The notes under the pieces are model-generated. The model was not told the origin of the DNA. It did no database searches and was given only the letters and a program-made list of their open reading frames with translations. DNA of 64,000 bases from Flavobacterium aquicola. Its GTDB lineage: Bacteria; Bacteroidota; Bacteroidia; Flavobacteriales; Flavobacteriaceae. The position numbers and the translations under genes are program-made. The DNA is taken from contig NZ_QUNI01000009.1 of the NCBI RefSeq assembly GCF_003385115.1, positions 1 to 64,000 of the forward strand, in the 5' to 3' direction. Each line of letters starts with the position of its first letter. Within the stretch, counting starts at the first letter, position 1. This document shows positions 5,314 through 13,449 of this stretch, piece after piece.

Positions 5314-6039
5314 TTAATCCAGTTCCTCCAGCAAAGCATCAACCTGATCATTGCCTTCATAATCCTCAGGAATGGTCAGCAATAGTTCTTGACAGGATTT
5401 ATAGTCTTTTTGTTTTAACTTACTCAAAGCCAAACTCCAGATTGCTTTGTTTTTATAAATAGAATTACCCGATTTCAACTCGTTAAAAACAGCCTCAGCT
5501 TCAAGCATTCTATTATCTTCCAATAAAGAAACTCCATAAAAATACTGAATCTCTGCACTTTTATCAGTCTTTAAAATAGTTTCAAAAAGCGGAATCGCCT
5601 TTTTATACTGCTTAGCATTAAATGCATCCTGAGCCAATTTCAAATTATCGTCTGCCTCTCCCCTCTCAGTAAAAAAAACAGTTTCTGTCTGATTGTAGTC
5701 CTCAAAAACCGGATCTGATTTTTGATTCAAAATAAAAATCCCTAGTAAAACCGCTACCGATGCTGCAACAGCATAATGCCACGGTTTAAAACCAATAACA
5801 TTGGATTTGGATTTTTTAAAATGTTTCTTAGAAATACCTTTCAAATTCTTCTTGAACGCCTGCAGTTCATCGGCTTTGCCAAACTTATTTTCCAAATGAA
5901 GATGCAGTTCCTTATACGTTTCAAAAGCCATTGCCAGTTCCGGCTCCTGCTTCAATTGTTCTTCAAAAGCCAATTTATCTGCATCAGGCATTTCGCCTTG
6001 AAGATATTCGTCAAATTCCAAAAAGTGTTCTTCGTTCAT
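5314..6039 (-). CDS. Anti-sigma-like single-pass membrane protein with TPR-type C terminus
   Basis: 241 residues. The acidic N-terminal 50 residues (FDEYLQGEMPDADKLAFEEQ and onward) look like the cytoplasmic part of anti-sigma proteins. One membrane segment lies at about 87-105 (AVAASVAVLLGIFIL). The outside part, about 120-241, carries tetratricopeptide-like helices (AQDAFNAKQYKKAIPLFETI; LLEDNRMLEAEAVFNEL). The start ATG is 2 bases from the stop codon of the sigma-factor gene, so the two are co-translated. The pairing, topology and acidic N terminus suggest it restrains that sigma factor and senses something in the periplasm. That role is inferred; no zinc-binding anti-sigma motif is present. 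Confidence 0.7.
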   Translation of the reverse strand: MNEEHFLEFDEYLQGEMPDADKLAFEEQLKQEPELAMAFETYKELHLHLENKFGKADELQAFKKNLKGISKKHFKKSKSNVIGFKPWHYAVAASVAVLLGIFILNQKSDPVFEDYNQTETVFFTERGEADDNLKLAQDAFNAKQYKKAIPLFETILKTDKSAEIQYFYGVSLLEDNRMLEAEAVFNELKSGNSIYKNKAIWSLALSKLKQKDYKSCQELLLTIPEDYEGNDQVDALLEELD

Positions 6040-6041
6040 GG

Positions 6042-6626
6042 CTAGGTATTTTTTATAGATTTAAAACGATTGTTTTCCTGAATCAGCTGTGTCAGCTGGC
6101 CAATGCAGAGCGATTTCTTTTTGCGGACATAACCATACGTAACTGCCAGTTTTTCGGCCACCTGTTCCATCGACGGGAGCTCAAAACTAAGCTTTATCAG
6201 CTCTTGGCATTTCTCCCCCAGTTTTTGAAACATCGCATCATACAGCTGCTGTTTTTCATCAAAATGCTCGGTCTGCACAACCATCTCATCAGCAGCATCG
6301 TGTATAGATGGCTGCTCGTCTTTAATTGTTACCCCTTTATTCGAATGTTTTTTCAGTTCATTGAGCCATTTCCGTTTGCACAACAAAAAAAAGTACGCAT
6401 CAAAGGGACAGGTTAATTGCAATTGCTGTGCTTTGGCCTGATTAAAAAGCAAAATCAGCACTTCCTGAACCACATCCTGCGCCTTATCGGCATCGCCAGA
6501 ATTGCTTTTTATATAGTGAACCACCTTTGGCACAAACTTTTTATAAATAGCATGAATAACCTCCGAATCATTATTCGCAAGTCCTTCAATATATATTTGG
6601 TCGGAATGAACAGTCGTTGCAGCCAT
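6042..6626 (-). CDS. ECF-type RNA polymerase sigma factor
   Basis: 194 residues from the ATG at 6626 (MAATTVHSDQ). Upstream in-frame ATGs at 6698 and elsewhere would add hydrophobic leader not seen in sigma factors. Region 2 covers about 20-95 (IYKKFVPKVVHYI; AQDVVQEVLILLF; FFLLCKRKWLNELKKH). A region 4 helix-turn-helix covers about 135-185 (LPSMEQVAEKLAVTYGYVRKKK). There is no region 3, as in ECF factors. It forms a two-gene unit with the anti-sigma-like protein and faces the lipoprotein/CHAT genes across a region with three matching promoter-like motifs. I infer these are its targets. Confidence 0.85.
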   Translation of the reverse strand: MAATTVHSDQIYIEGLANNDSEVIHAIYKKFVPKVVHYIKSNSGDADKAQDVVQEVLILLFNQAKAQQLQLTCPFDAYFFLLCKRKWLNELKKHSNKGVTIKDEQPSIHDAADEMVVQTEHFDEKQQLYDAMFQKLGEKCQELIKLSFELPSMEQVAEKLAVTYGYVRKKKSLCIGQLTQLIQENNRFKSIKNT

Positions 6627-6706
6627 AAAAAAACTTTTCATCGAAAATACTAAAAAAAGAGAAAAAACCTGCTTCAGATCCGTATATATCAACACCAATA
6701 ATAATC

Positions 6707-6822
6707 TGGGCGTAACCCCATTATGAAAAGAGGCCAGCTCATCTTTGCACTCATACGGCCTCTTTCCATAATGCGGTCGGGCTATCCGCGCTACTTCGGT
6801 AGCCTGCTTCTATCCCTTACGC
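6707..6822 (+). repeat. Interspersed repeat, family 2 (GGGCGT...GGTCGGGCTATCC...CTATCCCTTACGC)
   Basis: A 116-bp element with short inverted ends (GCGTAA near 6710; TTACGC near 6822). Inside is a hairpin with arms around ATTATGAAAAGAGGCC and GGCCTCTTTCCATAAT. It is followed by GGTCGGGCTATCC and a second small hairpin, GCTACTTCGGTAGC. The layout of conserved blocks around stem-loops resembles repeats I remember scattered through Flavobacterium-group genomes, but only one copy is present in this window. It lies just upstream of the sigma-factor gene. Confidence 0.6.
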
Positions 6823-6876
6823 AAACTGCAAAATCAAAAGTTTACTGCCAAAAAATAAAAAATTTCAAAAACAGGG

Positions 6877-6904
6877 GTAACAATTATAAAACCAAATGGA
6901 TATA
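6877..6904 (+). promoter_or_regulatory. Promoter-like motif GTAACA-N16-GATATA, copy 1
   Basis: GTAACA (6877-6882) and GATATA (6899-6904) are separated by exactly 16 bases and the motif is preceded by GG. The same two boxes with the same spacer occur twice more before the lipoprotein gene. The form resembles a -35/-10 pair of an ECF sigma factor and does not match the housekeeping TTG/TAnnTTTG promoter. This copy is about 320 bases from the start codon. Confidence 0.55.
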
Positions 6905-7023
6905 GCAGTATAAATCGATAATTAGAACTTTTAAAAACTTTTAGATTATGGAAAATATTAAAAAAATCGGAACCAGTTTCTTCAGTAAACTTTGGGCATT
7001 GATTACCCGATAAAATAGAAAGG

Positions 7024-7051
7024 GTAACAATTAAATCATTCAATTGATATA
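7024..7051 (+). promoter_or_regulatory. Promoter-like motif GTAACA-N16-GATATA, copy 2
   Basis: GTAACA at 7024-7029 and GATATA at 7046-7051, spacer 16 bases, again preceded by GG. AATT directly precedes GATATA, as in copy 3. Same interpretation as copy 1. Confidence 0.6.
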
Positions 7052-7077
7052 CTTCTGAAAAAAAATCAATTCGATCT

Positions 7078-7107
7078 CCCTCTCCTTTGGAGAGGGTTGG
7101 GGTGAGG
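7078..7107 (+). repeat. Short REP-like palindrome (CCCTCTCC-TTT-GGAGAGGG)
   Basis: A perfect 8-bp stem (7078-7085, 7089-7096) with a TTT loop is followed by TTGGGGTGAGG. It is far more GC-rich than its surroundings. This short palindrome with a GGGGTGAGG tail is common between genes in many bacteria. It sits between promoter-like copies 2 and 3. A minus-strand frame through it (FFLTPTLSKGEGD) is an artefact often seen with this repeat. Confidence 0.65.
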
Positions 7108-7114
7108 AAAAAAG

Positions 7115-7142
7115 GTAACAATATCAAACCTTAATTGATATA
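7115..7142 (+). promoter_or_regulatory. Promoter-like motif GTAACA-N16-GATATA, copy 3
   Basis: GTAACA at 7115-7120 and GATATA at 7137-7142, spacer 16 bases, preceded by AAAGG. It is the copy nearest the lipoprotein gene. A transcript starting 6-9 bases after GATATA would have a leader of about 75 bases before the ATG at 7224. Confidence 0.65.
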
Positions 7143-7223: not shown

Positions 7224-8210
7224 ATGAACAGAAATTTAAAATCAATCGCATTTTTATTTTTAACAGCAATCGCAATGACAAGCTGTACAAACGAGGATAC
7301 TCCAAATACTGAAGTCCCAAATATTCCAGCAACTGCAGCTGAATTCAAAGCAGTCCGTACTGAAGCATTAGCAAAACTAAAACAAACTTTTACGATAACA
7401 GAATCTTCTGGGACAGTAACCCTTACATCCGCCAGTGGCGTAAAACTCATGATCATCAGAGACAATCTTAGAAAAAACGGATTAGCATTTACCGGTCCTG
7501 TCAGCATCGAATATGTAGAAATATTTGACAAAGGGCACATGCTTACAGCCAATAAACCAACGATGGGATTAACAACAGACGGAAAGAAAAATCTACTAAT
7601 CTCCGGCGGTGAATTTTACATCAAAGCCACGAACGACGGGGTTGCTCTGGAAACCATAGGAACAATGGCTCTTATTGTCCCGACAATCTTAACGGACGGA
7701 TTAAAAACCGGAATGCAGCTTTGGATAGGCAATCAGGAAGATCCAGAAAACTTAGTTTGGAAAAATGTTGCCGACCCTGGAACCAATGGCGGTAAAGGAG
7801 GAGTTCAAGAAGAAGGAAACAACTATTATGTTACTTTTGGAAACTTTGGATGGACAAACGTAGATAAATTCTACAGCGATCCAAGACCAAAAACAACCAT
7901 CCTTGCTGATGCTCCTGATGGGTATGACAATACAAACAGTGCTATTTATTTATCTTACGATGGTGAAGGCCAAAACGCATTAGCTAAATTAGACACTTAC
8001 ACTGCCGCAGGATTATTCAGCGAGCATTACGGTCAAATTCCAATTGGACTAGCATGCCATATAATCTTTGCCACCGAAGACAACGGACAATGGAGATATG
8101 CAATCAAAGCCGTTACTGTAAGCGCAGATGCTGTTTACACTTTCACATTGGCCGAAACTACCGTAGGCACCGAAGCCCAATTAATAGCAGCAATCAATGC
8201 TATTCAATAG
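7224..8210 (+). CDS. Lipoprotein of unknown function, first gene of the CHAT locus
   Basis: A 328-residue lipoprotein. A hydrophobic signal (residues 5-18) ends in the lipobox AMTSC with Cys21. The residues after it (TNED) are acidic, like the surface-export signals of Bacteroidota lipoproteins, so it may face outside. The rest is probably beta-rich (SGTVTLTSASGVKLMI; GGEFYIKATNDGV); I do not recognise a domain. It follows three promoter-like motifs that I assign to the divergent sigma factor, and an intrinsic terminator (8236-8262) follows it. It may therefore be the most highly expressed gene of the group, with read-through into the PKD and CHAT genes. Confidence 0.75.
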   Translation: MNRNLKSIAFLFLTAIAMTSCTNEDTPNTEVPNIPATAAEFKAVRTEALAKLKQTFTITESSGTVTLTSASGVKLMIIRDNLRKNGLAFTGPVSIEYVEIFDKGHMLTANKPTMGLTTDGKKNLLISGGEFYIKATNDGVALETIGTMALIVPTILTDGLKTGMQLWIGNQEDPENLVWKNVADPGTNGGKGGVQEEGNNYYVTFGNFGWTNVDKFYSDPRPKTTILADAPDGYDNTNSAIYLSYDGEGQNALAKLDTYTAAGLFSEHYGQIPIGLACHIIFATEDNGQWRYAIKAVTVSADAVYTFTLAETTVGTEAQLIAAINAIQ

Positions 8211-8235
8211 GTTGCAGATTCAAATTAATAAGAAA

Positions 8236-8262
8236 AGTGGTGATTGCTCACCGCTTTTTTTT
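8236..8262 (+). terminator. Intrinsic terminator between lipoprotein and PKD genes
   Basis: AGTGGTGA (8236-8243) and TCACCGCT (8248-8255) form an 8-bp stem with one wobble pair, followed by eight T. It should partly or wholly separate the lipoprotein from the downstream genes. No TAnnTTTG or GTAACA/GATATA motif is visible between it and the next ATG at 8335, which argues for read-through. Confidence 0.7.
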
Positions 8263-8334
8263 ACTTTTAAAAATTATTTGAATTTTATTTCAAAATACGC
8301 AAAAAGCTATACAGACCGACCAAAATAACCAAAC

Positions 8335-10284
8335 ATGAACAAATCGCTATTCGTTTTTTTTCTAATTGCATCTTTCACTATATGCGCTCAGACAAAAGTA
8401 AAAGACACCATTACCCGAAGAGCTGTTATTGGATACGATCAAAAAGGAAATTTAGTTAGTTTCAAACCCGAAACACCGCCATTGATTCCTATTGCAGGTG
8501 CGCCAAAACCCAGTTATTCCTATCTATGGGAAATGGGCGACGGGCATTACAGTAAAGAAGCCGAACCCAAACATGTCTATAAAAACAAAGGAACTTATAC
8601 GGCCAGACTTACTGTAACCAATAATTACGACAATGGAAAACCGCCCGCTACACGTCCCAAAAAAGTCGTGGTTAATGACATTGAAGACAGCAGTTACAAA
8701 GACATTGCTTCTATTGCACCTCAAAATGGATTAGCAATTCAAAAAAACTGTGATCCTATTCCGGATCAGGAAATGCAGGTAATTGTGAGTTATGAAAATC
8801 TTGAAAACTATGTAACCAATGGAAAGCTCTATCTTTTTTTCAACGAAAAGCAATTCAAAAACAACAATTTCGATTTACAGGAAGTGCGTCCTTATGCCAG
8901 TGAAAGAATCATAAAAGAAAACAGCATCGCAACGGCAGATGACATTGATAATTCGAACCGCTATTTAGCATCCAGCGAAACTTTGGCTTTCGCCAAAAAA
9001 TATAAAGAAACTACTAATGAAACCGATTTGGATTCAACATTATTAGCTGCCAAAAACAGCTATAAAGATGTTGCAGCTTTAGAAATAGACGACCATAATC
9101 CAGGGGAAACCCGAAACGTTTTTTATACTTTCAAGACTACACCCGAAATGATTAAAGACACGAGTGCCACAATTACCATGCGCTCCATTTATGTCCCAAA
9201 CCGAAGCTTTAAAAACCATAAAATAAAAAACCTCGAGATGGAAATCGTTACTTCTCATGATCCCAACAAAATGGGTTCCAACGGAAGTTTCATGAATTAT
9301 AGATTTGTACGTTACAAAAGAGTCAAATTCAAAACCAGTTTTCAAAATAACGGCGAAGGTCCGGCAAGAAAAATACAGCTCGAAACCGATATTCCGGATA
9401 TGTTTGATAAAAGTACCCTGAAAATAGAAAGCATGTATCCTGAATGTCCTATTTGTCCAAAAGGAGAAGCTCCAACGATAAGCTGTCTGGATACCATTGT
9501 GAGAAGCACTCAGATCTTTTTTGTTTTCAAAAATATTTATCTGCCGGGAAGCAATCAGAAAAATGTAAAAGAAATAGACAGCACCAAAGGATTTGTGAAA
9601 TACTCAATGAAGTTCAACGAGGATTTTCATAAAATAAAGACGAAAAGCAGAACGGCTATCATATTCGACAAAAACGAACCTATTATAACCAATTATGCCA
9701 CTACCCGATTCACTCCCGGAATATCCATTGGAGCGAAAGCCGGCTATAACATATACACAAACTTGGAAAATCCAAAAAGTTATTTTGTCGGAGCCACAAT
9801 CTCTCCTTTTAAATCATACCGCTATTACCTGCAGGCCGAATTTTTGAATAACGTAACTTCCTACGACGGCACTACGACTGTCACCCAAGAATTCAATCAG
9901 GATACAGGAAAAGTACAGTTAAACCGCATTACAGCATCCACTGAAAACAAAAACATCAATTGGGAAATCCCCGTATTGTTCCGATATAATATTTCTACTT
10001 ATTTTGGGATAGGAGCTGGTGCTCAGATAAACATGAATATTTCGGAAAAACAGACTCAAAATATTCAAACTGATATCTATGAAGGACCATCAGATAAATT
10101 ATTATTGCGTACAGTTTATTCGACCGAAACAGCAACTGACTCTTTTACTCAATTAAAATCAGGACTTCTGTTTGACTTCACTGCAGGTTTTGCCCGAATC
10201 GGTCCTAGTTTCGGAGCACGTTATGTGCTTAACTTTGACAATAATTTCAGTTATTGTCAGTTATATGCTATCTGGAAATTTTAA
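8335..10284 (+). CDS. PKD-domain protein with C-terminal outer-membrane beta-barrel-like region
   Basis: 649 residues. A signal peptide covers 1-18 (FFLIASFTICAQ). A PKD domain follows at about 40-113, with the diagnostic WEMGDG and Y-x2-KGTYTARLTV. The middle, about 130-450, is unassigned; it has a C-x2-C-containing stretch (YPECPICPKGE) near 375. The last 180 residues alternate in beta-strand fashion (YFVGATISPF; FGIGAGAQINMNI; FGARYVLNF) and end in Phe, as outer-membrane barrels do. It probably displays the PKD part at the cell surface or in the periplasm. It precedes the CHAT protease gene by 55 bases and is likely co-transcribed with it. Confidence 0.7.
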   Translation: MNKSLFVFFLIASFTICAQTKVKDTITRRAVIGYDQKGNLVSFKPETPPLIPIAGAPKPSYSYLWEMGDGHYSKEAEPKHVYKNKGTYTARLTVTNNYDNGKPPATRPKKVVVNDIEDSSYKDIASIAPQNGLAIQKNCDPIPDQEMQVIVSYENLENYVTNGKLYLFFNEKQFKNNNFDLQEVRPYASERIIKENSIATADDIDNSNRYLASSETLAFAKKYKETTNETDLDSTLLAAKNSYKDVAALEIDDHNPGETRNVFYTFKTTPEMIKDTSATITMRSIYVPNRSFKNHKIKNLEMEIVTSHDPNKMGSNGSFMNYRFVRYKRVKFKTSFQNNGEGPARKIQLETDIPDMFDKSTLKIESMYPECPICPKGEAPTISCLDTIVRSTQIFFVFKNIYLPGSNQKNVKEIDSTKGFVKYSMKFNEDFHKIKTKSRTAIIFDKNEPIITNYATTRFTPGISIGAKAGYNIYTNLENPKSYFVGATISPFKSYRYYLQAEFLNNVTSYDGTTTVTQEFNQDTGKVQLNRITASTENKNINWEIPVLFRYNISTYFGIGAGAQINMNISEKQTQNIQTDIYEGPSDKLLLRTVYSTETATDSFTQLKSGLLFDFTAGFARIGPSFGARYVLNFDNNFSYCQLYAIWKF

Positions 10285-10339
10285 TTTAAACACAAAGAAA
10301 AAACTCAACATTTTACTAAATATCAGACAACCAAATGGC

Positions 10340-12964
10340 ATGATCAAAAAAAGCATCTTTCTTTACCTTTTTACAATTATAAATCTTTATGGGCAAAAAA
10401 AGCTCCCTGAAGACCTAACTTATGATGCCATCGATTATTTTGTCGCCAGCCCGTCTTTGGAAGGCATTAAAAAACTTAATAGCGTTGAAACTCTTTTCTG
10501 GAAGAGTCAGGACAAAAAAACAAAGGAAGGATTACTGTCAATTGTTGTTCTTAACTGCAATAAAGGATATTACGAAAATAAATTTGGACGAACCAACCAA
10601 GCCATTGCCAGTTATGAAAAAGCATGGAAAACGTACCAGACTTATCAGCTCACCGATTATGACATAATTGAATACTGTCTAAAACCGCTCGGGAATTTAT
10701 ACACCATAATTGGAGATTATACTAATGCCGAAAACACTATAAAGCACTATTATTTTATTGCCAATGTGCAAAAAAATGAACCGCAGAAAATCGCTGCAAT
10801 TCTTAATTTATCAAATACGTACCAAAACTCAGGCAGGATTACCGAAGCTATTGATTTAATTGAAAATACAATTCAAACCGAAAAATTGACATCGGTTCAA
10901 AAAGGGCTTTTATTAAATAATTTAGGGGCAAATTACCTTTTAAGATCAATAAATGAAGATACATTTAATGCTGAAGTGGCTTTTTCAAAAGCAATCCCTT
11001 TATTAAAACAAGACAAAACCCAAACAGAAGCTTTATTCAACATCTACATTAATCTGTATAGGATTAAAATGAACAGCCAAAAGAATGAGGCTCTAAATTA
11101 TTTTGCAAAAGCCAAAAATATTTTTGAAAGCTTACCAGATAAAGAACCTAGAAAAAAAGCCCAATTTTATTTGGAAGAAGTTATTCTGTTGTTAAAACAA
11201 AATAATTTAGCCGAAGCCCAAACTGTACTTCAAAAAGTTTTTAAAATATTAATTTCTAATTATTCCAAAGAAAAAAAACTTCCCGAGGAAAATTCCCTTT
11301 ATGCCGAATCCGTTTTGCTCGATGCCCTAGACCTTCAAGCAGACTTATTCACAGCACAAAAACAGCCCGAGAAAGCATTAAAAAGCTATGATCTTGCATT
11401 TCGCATAGAGAAATTATTTCAGCTGCTCATCGTCTATGAAAATTCAAAAATAATTACCCAAATCAAAAACAGAAAACGGATCGAAAAATGCATCCAGATT
11501 TACCAGTCGTTATTTAAAAAAGAAGGCAATCCTATTTATATAGAAAAAGCCTTTCAGCTGGTAGAACATACTAAATCGTGCGTTTTAAAAAATGAAATTT
11601 TCAGAAACCAAACTGCTTCAAAAAACGAAAAGCAAAAAGTTGAAGATTTACGATTTTGGAACAATGAAATTCTGAAAGAACAGCAAAAAGGAGAATTGGC
11701 CAATATCAATAAAATAAACGAAGCCATTAAAAAGCAGAATGTGGCAATGCTCATTCTAAAAGAGTACCAGCCTTCCCGCACAAAGCAAAGCAATACAGTT
11801 ATTAATGTCAATGCATTATACTCCAAACTTGAATCTGACGATGCCGTTATGGTCGAATACTTTTGGGGTTCACAAACGGTTTATGTTTTTACTGTGCAAA
11901 ACAAAAAAATTACACTGCAGAGTTTCTGCACAGGACAAATGTGCGGTGAACCAATAGTCACTTATGTAAGTCTTTTTAATAATGCAAACAGTATTACAAA
12001 CGACATTAGCTTTTACAATAAAACTGCTGCTTTGGCTTATAAAAATCTATTGCTGCCAACTAAATCAAGTAATAAAAATCTCATCATCATTCCTGATGGA
12101 ATTTTAAATTTCCTACCATTTGAAGCGCTGATAACCAAAGAATCCAATACTACCAATTTTGAAAAAATGCACTATCTGCTAAATGACTTCAATATTGCGT
12201 ACAACAATTCAGCCAGTTTTTATTTGGATACCAAACCCTTTTCCCAAAAAGAGAAAACCGTTTTGGGTATTTTTCCTGTTTTTGAAAAAACAAATTACAC
12301 TCTCACTTATTCTAAAAAAGAACTGCAATCGATCAGAAACAGTTTTAAAGGCCGTTTTTTTGAAAACAGCGATGCTGCTTTTCAAAATTTTAAAAATAAC
12401 GCCGCTAAATATTCTATACTGCATTTATCAACTCATGCGTCGGCTGGCGACATTGAAACACCAGCCAGCATAAAATTTTATGATCGGGAAGTCATGTATT
12501 CCGAATTATATCATCTGAATATACATCCCAATCTGGTTGTTTTGAGTGCCTGCGAAACAGGGATTGGCAAACTCTACAAATCCGAAGGAGCGATGAGTAT
12601 TGCCAGAGGCTTTCAGTTTGCGGGAGCTCAAAATTTATTATTCTCTTTATGGAAAGTAAATGACTATACAACCTCAGTGTTTATGGGGGATTTTTATAAA
12701 CACATCAAAAAAAATGAATCTTATTTTGAAGCTAATGCTAATGCAAAACTTGGTTTTTTAAAAAATAAAAACATTTCAAATGCCAAAAAATCACCTTATT
12801 ACTGGGCTTCATTTGTATATTACGGTGATATCGAAAACAAAGAAAAAAATAACTATCTGCTGATAGGTTTTGTAATTACTGCAGTAGTAATCAGCTGTTT
12901 TATAATATACAGACTTACCTTTAAAAGAATAAAAAAAGAAAAAATCAAATTCAAAAACCAATAA
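10340..12964 (+). CDS. TPR-CHAT caspase-like protease, exported and membrane-anchored
   Basis: 874 residues from the ATG at 10340. An in-frame ATG at 10172 lies inside the PKD gene and would hide the signal peptide MIKKSIFLYLFTIINLYGQ. About 50-470 are helical TPR-like repeats. The CHAT domain covers about 500-825 and has the expected cysteine-protease dyad, His699 in LSTHASAGD and Cys738 in LSACETGIG. A membrane segment at about 837-858 is followed by a basic tail (RIKKEKIKF). The signal peptide plus this C-terminal anchor puts the protease domain in the periplasm. CHAT proteins elsewhere are proteases switched on by partners through TPR regions; substrate and trigger here are unknown. Confidence 0.85.
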   Translation: MIKKSIFLYLFTIINLYGQKKLPEDLTYDAIDYFVASPSLEGIKKLNSVETLFWKSQDKKTKEGLLSIVVLNCNKGYYENKFGRTNQAIASYEKAWKTYQTYQLTDYDIIEYCLKPLGNLYTIIGDYTNAENTIKHYYFIANVQKNEPQKIAAILNLSNTYQNSGRITEAIDLIENTIQTEKLTSVQKGLLLNNLGANYLLRSINEDTFNAEVAFSKAIPLLKQDKTQTEALFNIYINLYRIKMNSQKNEALNYFAKAKNIFESLPDKEPRKKAQFYLEEVILLLKQNNLAEAQTVLQKVFKILISNYSKEKKLPEENSLYAESVLLDALDLQADLFTAQKQPEKALKSYDLAFRIEKLFQLLIVYENSKIITQIKNRKRIEKCIQIYQSLFKKEGNPIYIEKAFQLVEHTKSCVLKNEIFRNQTASKNEKQKVEDLRFWNNEILKEQQKGELANINKINEAIKKQNVAMLILKEYQPSRTKQSNTVINVNALYSKLESDDAVMVEYFWGSQTVYVFTVQNKKITLQSFCTGQMCGEPIVTYVSLFNNANSITNDISFYNKTAALAYKNLLLPTKSSNKNLIIIPDGILNFLPFEALITKESNTTNFEKMHYLLNDFNIAYNNSASFYLDTKPFSQKEKTVLGIFPVFEKTNYTLTYSKKELQSIRNSFKGRFFENSDAAFQNFKNNAAKYSILHLSTHASAGDIETPASIKFYDREVMYSELYHLNIHPNLVVLSACETGIGKLYKSEGAMSIARGFQFAGAQNLLFSLWKVNDYTTSVFMGDFYKHIKKNESYFEANANAKLGFLKNKNISNAKKSPYYWASFVYYGDIENKEKNNYLLIGFVITAVVISCFIIYRLTFKRIKKEKIKFKNQ

Positions 12965-13011: not shown

Positions 13012-13449
13012 ATGAAAAATCTACACGAAAAACTCAAGAAAGCAGATTACAAAAAAGTAAAATTTACAATTACCAAAACCCAGCACCTTTTAATTAAGGC
13101 AAAAATCAACGGCGTAAAAGGAAATTTCATACTGGACACGGGAGCTTCGAACAGCTGTGTGGGATTTGAAGGCATTGAACATTTTGCATTGGAAGCTAAA
13201 AATTCCAAAACCAAAGCTTCGGGTGCTGGAGCGACAGGCATGCTTACGCAGATGGCTTCGGGCAATAAACTCAAATTGTCCAAATGGAAAACATCTAAAC
13301 TGGATCTTGTAATCTTCGATTTATCACACGTTAACGAAGCTTTAGGCCAGTATAAAGTAAAACCAGTTCACGGCATCATAGGCGCCGATGTCCTTCTGAA
13401 AGGCAAAGGGATTATTGATTATTTTAATCATTTTTTGTATTTGAAATAG
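13012..13449 (+). CDS. Retropepsin-like aspartic protease
   Basis: 145 residues. Asp42-Thr43-Gly44 in [13 protein letters not shown] is the catalytic loop of clan AA (retropepsin-like) proteases, and [18 protein letters not shown] is the matching C-terminal strand and loop. As in retropepsins there is one DTG, so a dimer is expected. No signal peptide is present, placing it in the cytoplasm, unlike the CHAT protein 47 bases upstream. It ends 26 bases inside the convergent MFS gene. With CHAT it makes a two-protease gene pair; whether they act together is unknown. Confidence 0.75.

Follow-up and report, generated by a model that had tools for sequence, protein, structure and literature searches.

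The window, a stretch of 64,000 nucleotides from Flavobacterium aquicola, carries a divergently arranged locus. On the minus strand, positions 6042 to 6626 encode an ECF-type sigma factor of 194 aa with region 2 and a probable region 4, which matches PF04542 with 28 bits (cut-off 24; 1.9e-06) and TIGR02937 with 61.7 bits (cut-off 42.9). Region 4 gave no Pfam match at 1e-3; TIGR02937 spans residues 25 to 180, and the C-terminal part is highly conserved. Adjoining it on the same strand is a putative anti-sigma factor (5314 to 6039), composed of a short N-terminal part, a hydrophobic stretch and a C-terminal TPR-like part, the hydrophobic stretch being single and lying near residues 89-105 as read from the sequence.

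On the plus strand, three promoter-like sites of the form GGTAACA-N16-GATATA were found. Site 1 (6876 to 6904), with its -35 box at 6876-6882 and its -10 box at 6899-6904, lies upstream of a 21-aa cationic micropeptide ORF (MENIKKIGTSFFSKLWALITR, 6948 to 7013) that starts 43 nt after the -10 box. Site 2 (7023 to 7051) and site 3 (7114 to 7142) are the predicted upstream and proximal promoters of the gene nearest to them, which encodes a lipoprotein of 328 aa (7224 to 8210) with no Pfam family match; GATATA of site 3 is 81 nt from the ATG. The initial annotation had reported three copies on one strand with a constant distance of 16 nt from box to box, which was confirmed at the same positions; each GTAACA is preceded by a further G. 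A strong 21-nt inverted repeat is present between the sigma gene and site 1 (6715-6777; z -4.5 for 6705-6790, minus strand), and five close relatives (L010-L014) likewise have site 1 at a distance of some 240-320 nt from the sigma gene. In addition, a repeat-like element, CTCCTTTGGAGAGGGTTGGGGTGAGG, occupies 7082-7107 between sites 2 and 3; the genome contains it twice more in nearly identical form, with 1 and 2 mismatches.

Conserved gene cluster behind the sites

Downstream of the lipoprotein gene, still on the plus strand, a terminator-like hairpin with a T tail (8230 to 8261; z -5.8 for 8226-8266) precedes the gene of a protein with a PKD domain and DUF7849 (8335 to 10284), barrel-like in that it shows weak likeness to outer-membrane barrel families. 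It is followed by a TPR-CHAT putative protease (10340 to 12964; CHAT 2.3e-43, motifs HLSTHA and VVLSACET; searched from a start at 10337, one codon upstream) and by a retropepsin-like aspartyl protease (13012 to 13449; PF13650), the last gene of the conserved cluster. By eye, the TPR-CHAT protein has an N-terminal signal-like stretch and a C-terminal hydrophobic stretch, and most of its orthologs have a signal-like start and a hydrophobic end segment. Pfam detected no Cas-like family in seven neighbouring window proteins.

The genes for sigma, anti-sigma, PKD protein, TPR-CHAT and aspartyl protease occur together in 19/19 intact-sigma Flavobacterium loci that were taken widely, and the lipoprotein in 18 of those 19. 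Both patterns of the CHAT His-Cys motifs match in 18/19 of these Flavobacterium orthologs, the exception being L180, in which the PKD and CHAT genes are each in two pieces; some orthologs of other genera match just one catalytic motif pattern. A membrane-type putative anti-sigma adjoins the sigma gene in all 19 loci and in 14/14 ortholog loci taken widely from other genera. Thirteen of these 14 contain lipoprotein, PKD and CHAT genes (the exception, L315, had sequence covering 9 kb only) and eight the aspartyl protease. Within Flavobacterium, F. johnsoniae strain CI04 likewise has an ortholog. Three of the 14 (L305, L308, L309) possess an additional site between the lipoprotein and PKD genes, as if their CHAT operon were driven directly by the sigma factor. 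The window has no site at this place and the terminator-like hairpin instead; as PKD and CHAT lie behind this hairpin, their control by the window sites is unsure.

Frequency and geometry of the motif

For GTAACA-N14..18-GATATA, about 0.03 occurrences are expected per window, and 0/100 shuffles gave three. When two mismatches were permitted, 8 matches in the window compared with 6.3 expected, which is not above chance; the motif is thus conspicuous in its exact form only. Exact GTAACA-N16-GATATA occurs five times in the whole genome (5.12 Mb), three of them being the window sites, and with GG in front (GGTAACA) the three window sites are the only ones. With a longer pattern, the next best match in the rest of the genome has 2/16 mismatches; when up to 3 mismatches are allowed, the motif is outnumbered by the reversed control (91 vs 133), which leaves the locus itself as the candidate regulon of this genome. 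A wider regulon in the window genome was rejected, as nothing beyond the three sites exceeds the reversed control. Judging from sequence, the candidate regulon here would comprise the micropeptide ORF and the lipoprotein, and possibly also the operon that follows the lipoprotein.

We built a matrix from 115 distinct strict Flavobacterium sites. The refined consensus is GGGTAACAAWT-N10-RTTGATATA, with TTGATATA as the -10 element (TGGATATA at window site 1). Results showed that the spacing is fixed: among 18 spacer lengths tried for GGTAAC-N-TGATATA, 145 matches were at the canonical length, 3 at +8 nt and none at the other 16, and the looser GTAACA-N-GATA gave 157 at canonical spacing, with small secondary peaks at a spacer of 9 (16 matches) and at one of 24 (13 matches). 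The spacer of site 3, GGTAACAATATCAAACCnnAATTGATATA, recurs in near-identical form before the lipoprotein gene in many relatives.

A pyrimidine-purine step is found 5/6 nt after GATATA in 122/169 distinct extended-motif contexts (TA 85, TG 27). Such steps are also frequent at positions 7/8 (98/169) and 2/3 (80/169), so that the true start could be slightly off. A start at the 5/6 step would place GGTAACA at about -34 to -28 and GATATA at about -11 to -6, the arrangement expected of an ECF promoter. On the basis of this step, transcription in the window is predicted to start at about 6910 (site 1), 7057 (site 2) and 7148 (site 3), the step at the last being A-A and not pyrimidine-purine. Moreover, in 168/169 contexts an ORF with an ATG start and a length of at least 20 aa begins within 300 nt of the site, at distances with a main peak at 30-49 nt (59/168) and lesser groups at 70-89 and 130-159 nt.

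Association of the motif with the sigma gene

We searched 199 Flavobacterium genomes with both the sigma protein (E 1e-20 or better) and the extended motif GGTAACAA-N14-TGATATA. The sigma factor was matched in 73 genomes and the extended motif in 71, namely in 68/73 sigma-positive versus 3/126 sigma-negative genomes (G095, G152, G170); the Fisher p of 4e-43 ignores kinship and, as the genomes are related, the counts are not independent. The sigma-positive genomes without the extended motif are G025, G077, G096, G179 and G195. Counting as negative the four genomes that have no normal ortholog (G049, G077 and G096, with a fused sigma, and G195, at 37% identity) gave 67/69 versus 4/130, the 69 intact genomes including G149, whose sigma gene is cut by a contig end, and G165, where it is split over two contigs. 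In G025 and G179, sigma is intact and the extended motif absent, but variants are present at the locus (CGGATATA and GGGATATA; TTGATATG). The shorter GGTAACA-N16-GATATA was found in 71/73 sigma-positive versus 10/126 sigma-negative genomes, and the reversed extended pattern, as control, in 3/199. Among 196 genomes drawn from the whole order, 12 contained the stricter GGTAACAA-N13-TTGATATA, that is 11/18 Flavobacterium, 0/12 other genera of the family and 1/166 in other families (G461). The scan of relatives for co-occurrence with sigma orthologs, proposed with the initial annotation, thus gave a positive answer, and the sigma loci of other genera, 25/28 of which have some matrix match, agree with it.

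The orientation of the sites was then considered locus by locus. Among the 73 Flavobacterium sigma loci (L009-L038, L098-L140), 68 were tried and two (L123, L127) were not usable; outside this count are the fused sigmas (L136, L137, L139), a 567-nt fragment (L138) and the locus at 37% identity (L140). All 66 usable loci have a site above 18 bits directed away from sigma and none directed at it, a result that is partly circular within this genus as the matrix derives from Flavobacterium sites. Loci from other genera contributed nothing to the matrix; by strict orientation, 22 of their 23 usable loci (28 tried) have a site directed away from sigma, and none has one toward it. The mirrored matrix gave no match in either set. 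Each Flavobacterium locus has one to five sites, the nearest lying 33-60 nt from the approximate sigma start in 51/66, and 10 of the 14 widely taken other-genus loci have a site above 17 bits (all except L313, L315, L319 and L320). Autoregulation of sigma through the motif was rejected, since no sigma-facing site occurs within 1300 nt in any usable locus.

Within the sigma gene itself, GTAACAATTAAAGACGAGCAGCCATCTA is found at 6305-6332 on the minus (sense) strand, and similar in-gene matches occur in many orthologs, probably reflecting coding constraint; one of the 43 other-genus matches (in L279) also falls inside the sigma gene. In the G091 locus (L131), the two best sites share TTGATTTA where TTGATATA is expected, possibly a coordinated drift of the -10 box. 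Changes in sigma region 2 that might match the -10 variants of G091, G088 and G025 were sought, and none was convincing.

The three copies might also be functionless remnants of a duplicated or mobile repeat. The initial annotation had held that they are no simple duplication, which is right for the window, where the copies share 73% identity with the reference copy across a 33-nt unit, but does not extend to two relatives (L019, L020) with tandem arrays of a unit of about 150-158 nt, made of a site and a 22-aa strongly cationic ORF of the MKKYIKKIRSYFTKRIWKIITR type. These units and the repeat-like element between sites 2 and 3 would suit remnants of this kind; conserved boxes amid variable spacers and flanks, the retention of sites at the same place in other genera, and the near absence of the extended motif without sigma (3/126) and of its stricter form in other families (1/166) make functionless remnants very improbable.

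Three genomes (G049, G077, G096) provide a natural knock-out. In them, the first ~130 residues of sigma are joined in frame to the membrane part of the anti-sigma; region 4 of sigma and the N-terminus of the anti-sigma have thereby been lost. Their loci have lost the lipoprotein, PKD and CHAT genes, retain the aspartyl protease, and have no site above 10 bits left; an apparent decayed site 1, GGTAACCACATTATAATCAACTGCATATA, is seen in G077. As the fusion junctions look alike, the three region-4 deletions may be one event. It speaks against a tie to sigma that one distant site (C21:414745) survives in G049, with the same sequence as the G006 site that precedes an L,D-transpeptidase-domain gene.

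We also looked at paralogous sigma loci. GGTAAC within 250 nt of the sigma gene is directed away from it in 13/23 and at it in 3, and GATA at canonical spacing from GGTAAC is found in 0/23. An enumeration of repeated two-box motifs at these loci returned nothing clear, with only GGTAAC in common. As GGTAAC recurs at many paralogous loci, the -35 box is shared more widely, with TTGATATA marking the sigma group of the window. The initial annotation had expected the motif to give the recognition sequence of this sigma factor and to define its regulon; the tie to sigma stands, whereas the candidate regulon in the window genome is the locus only, and the GGTAAC half belongs also to 13/23 paralogous loci. 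Each of four paralogous loci examined widely (L191, L317, L318, L321) has a CHAT match nearby. At L324 and other paralogous loci, a subtilisin-like protease gene apparently lies beside the ECF sigma gene (a GTSFAAP-like coding stretch, by eye).

Co-occurrence with the cluster alone would suit any co-inherited regulator, and one may therefore ask whether the motif is the operator of another co-travelling regulator, the promoters being ordinary sigma-A promoters; the 4-5 sites in some arrays (8/66 loci) would also agree with an operator. By considering that (i) the -35/-10 spacing is fixed, and accompanied by the pyrimidine-purine step and a preferred distance to the start codon, (ii) Pfam finds no other DNA-binding protein among seven neighbouring window proteins, (iii) the locus sites are lost together with sigma region 4, and (iv) the -35 half is common to paralogous sigma loci, we regard an operator as improbable. 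On sequence comparison, the motif has the bipartite -35/-10 form with fixed spacer, tied to a sigma gene, that characterizes an ECF promoter. We therefore favour, with a probability of roughly 0.9, the reading that the ECF sigma factor encoded divergently at 6042-6626 recognises the three sites as tandem promoters. The initial annotation had likewise read them as a -35/-10 pair of the adjacent ECF sigma, and the co-occurrence and the 22/23 oriented loci of other genera support it.

Candidate targets, proposed mechanism and known systems

Sequence comparison establishes the motif, its fixed geometry, its orientation and its links to the sigma gene and to ORF starts; sigma binding, start points and anti-sigma action we infer from it. 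GGTAACA would be bound as -35 by region 4 and TTGATATA (TGGATATA at site 1) as -10 by region 2. Upon release by the membrane-bound anti-sigma (5314-6039), sigma-RNA polymerase would initiate at the sites, the start near 6910 leading to the micropeptide and those near 7057 and 7148 to the lipoprotein, and transcripts reading through the terminator-like hairpin may extend into the genes of the PKD/barrel protein, TPR-CHAT and the aspartyl protease.

Twelve loci contain ORFs related to the micropeptide, with 13 distinct copies in all. These are cationic, 21-22 aa long, have LITR or IITR at their end and follow a site at a distance of 39-44 nt. Eight 21-aa LITR copies differ by 113/103/136 at the three codon positions, a weak third-position excess. 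The hydrophobic moments of the LITR/IITR peptides exceed most shuffles, with 0/18 peptides beating all 500. Many other species have, after site 1, a protein of ~99 aa whose match to DUF4234 is weak and falls below the cut-off. An almost identical 21-codon ORF (MAISQHLNKI..) stands directly behind the site and upstream of exported-protein genes in L141-L145 and L159; being nearly identical at the DNA level, it may be a conserved leader and not a peptide.

The last site is upstream of the lipoprotein gene in most loci. The AF2 model of the lipoprotein (mean pLDDT 86) has weak likeness to GAIN/ZU5 plus a transthyretin-like domain, and the fold search for its function gave weak matches only, the best to a GAIN/ZU5 fold at Z 7.8 (below Z 8; rmsd 3.6, 147 aligned). 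The lack of a match carries no information on the fold.

Distant loci were fetched in 31 cases (L141-L171), chosen among the matches listed; the description of targets covers L141-L166, leaving aside L167-L169 (without TGATATA) and L170-L171 (genomes without sigma). Among the matches listed, the 28 distant sites in L141-L166 are followed, by eye, by an exported protein in all but two cases, these being a 73-aa ORF (L166) and a 22-aa ORF (one L165 site). The L141 protein has a YkuD L,D-transpeptidase domain by Pfam, and a group of further distant targets resembles it by eye. An outer-membrane barrel is found at L156 and lipoproteins at L157, L158 and L161, that of L161 being related to the window lipoprotein; the remaining exported proteins are without family. 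The 73-aa ORF of L166 (minus strand) has an IKGG stretch similar to a double-glycine leader. Outside the window species, this sigma would also drive distant exported proteins such as lipoproteins and an L,D-transpeptidase, which points to an envelope-type response.

The same signal stands beside the same sigma gene and before surface-protein genes in many related environmental bacteria. From sequence alone, it yields a recognition sequence that can be put to use for an ECF sigma present in many genera of Flavobacteriaceae, together with a candidate regulon list of micropeptide ORFs, lipoproteins, the L,D-transpeptidase group and a barrel protein, and it links a putative protease of the TPR-CHAT type with a sigma/anti-sigma pair that is not part of a CRISPR system. 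A literature search limited to open-licence papers found no earlier description of the motif or the cluster, which is not proof of absence. The system is like the RpoE/RseA type (group IV) in its small, apparently two-region sigma, adjacent membrane-type putative anti-sigma and predicted envelope targets, and an AAC-containing -35 box in a bipartite promoter is a further likeness to those systems. It is unlike them in its TTGATATA -10 box, in having no site facing its own sigma gene, in the micropeptide ORFs among its targets and in the TPR-CHAT putative protease of the conserved cluster.

Six promoter classes are described in F. psychrophilum, where SM1-3 vary around TAnnTTTG, SM4 is sigma-54, SM5 is TAnnTTGY and SM6, with a CGT box, is attributed to ECF factors (PMC9723704). 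As worded there, these classes do not include the window motif, and GTAAC and TTGATATA are absent from the main text, logos aside (PMC9723704). GTAAC appears once in PMC5607195, in a primer table. PorXY-SigP of P. gingivalis, as reported, also has a Bacteroidota ECF factor, which controls secretion functions, and differs by its two-component input (PMC4800418).

In the type III-E Craspase, the TPR-CHAT protein Csx29 is reported to cleave Csx30, the sigma inhibitor of CASP-sigma (PMC10028731). There a TPR-CHAT protease is encoded with an ECF-like sigma and its inhibitor, and here a putative TPR-CHAT protease with an ECF-type sigma and a putative anti-sigma. Unlike in the Craspase as reported, no Cas7-11 was seen among the seven neighbours scanned here, the CHAT protein looks exported and membrane-anchored, and its presumed substrate is a membrane anti-sigma. 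It is speculative that the TPR-CHAT protease cuts the outer domain of the anti-sigma. By analogy, and tentatively, as we consider it rather unlikely, the cluster might be a chromosomal, CRISPR-free counterpart of Craspase signalling, in which an exported, membrane-anchored TPR-CHAT would sense envelope damage, cut the membrane anti-sigma in its outer TPR domain and free the ECF factor for the expression of cationic amphipathic micropeptides and surface proteins from GGTAACA-N16-GATATA promoters.
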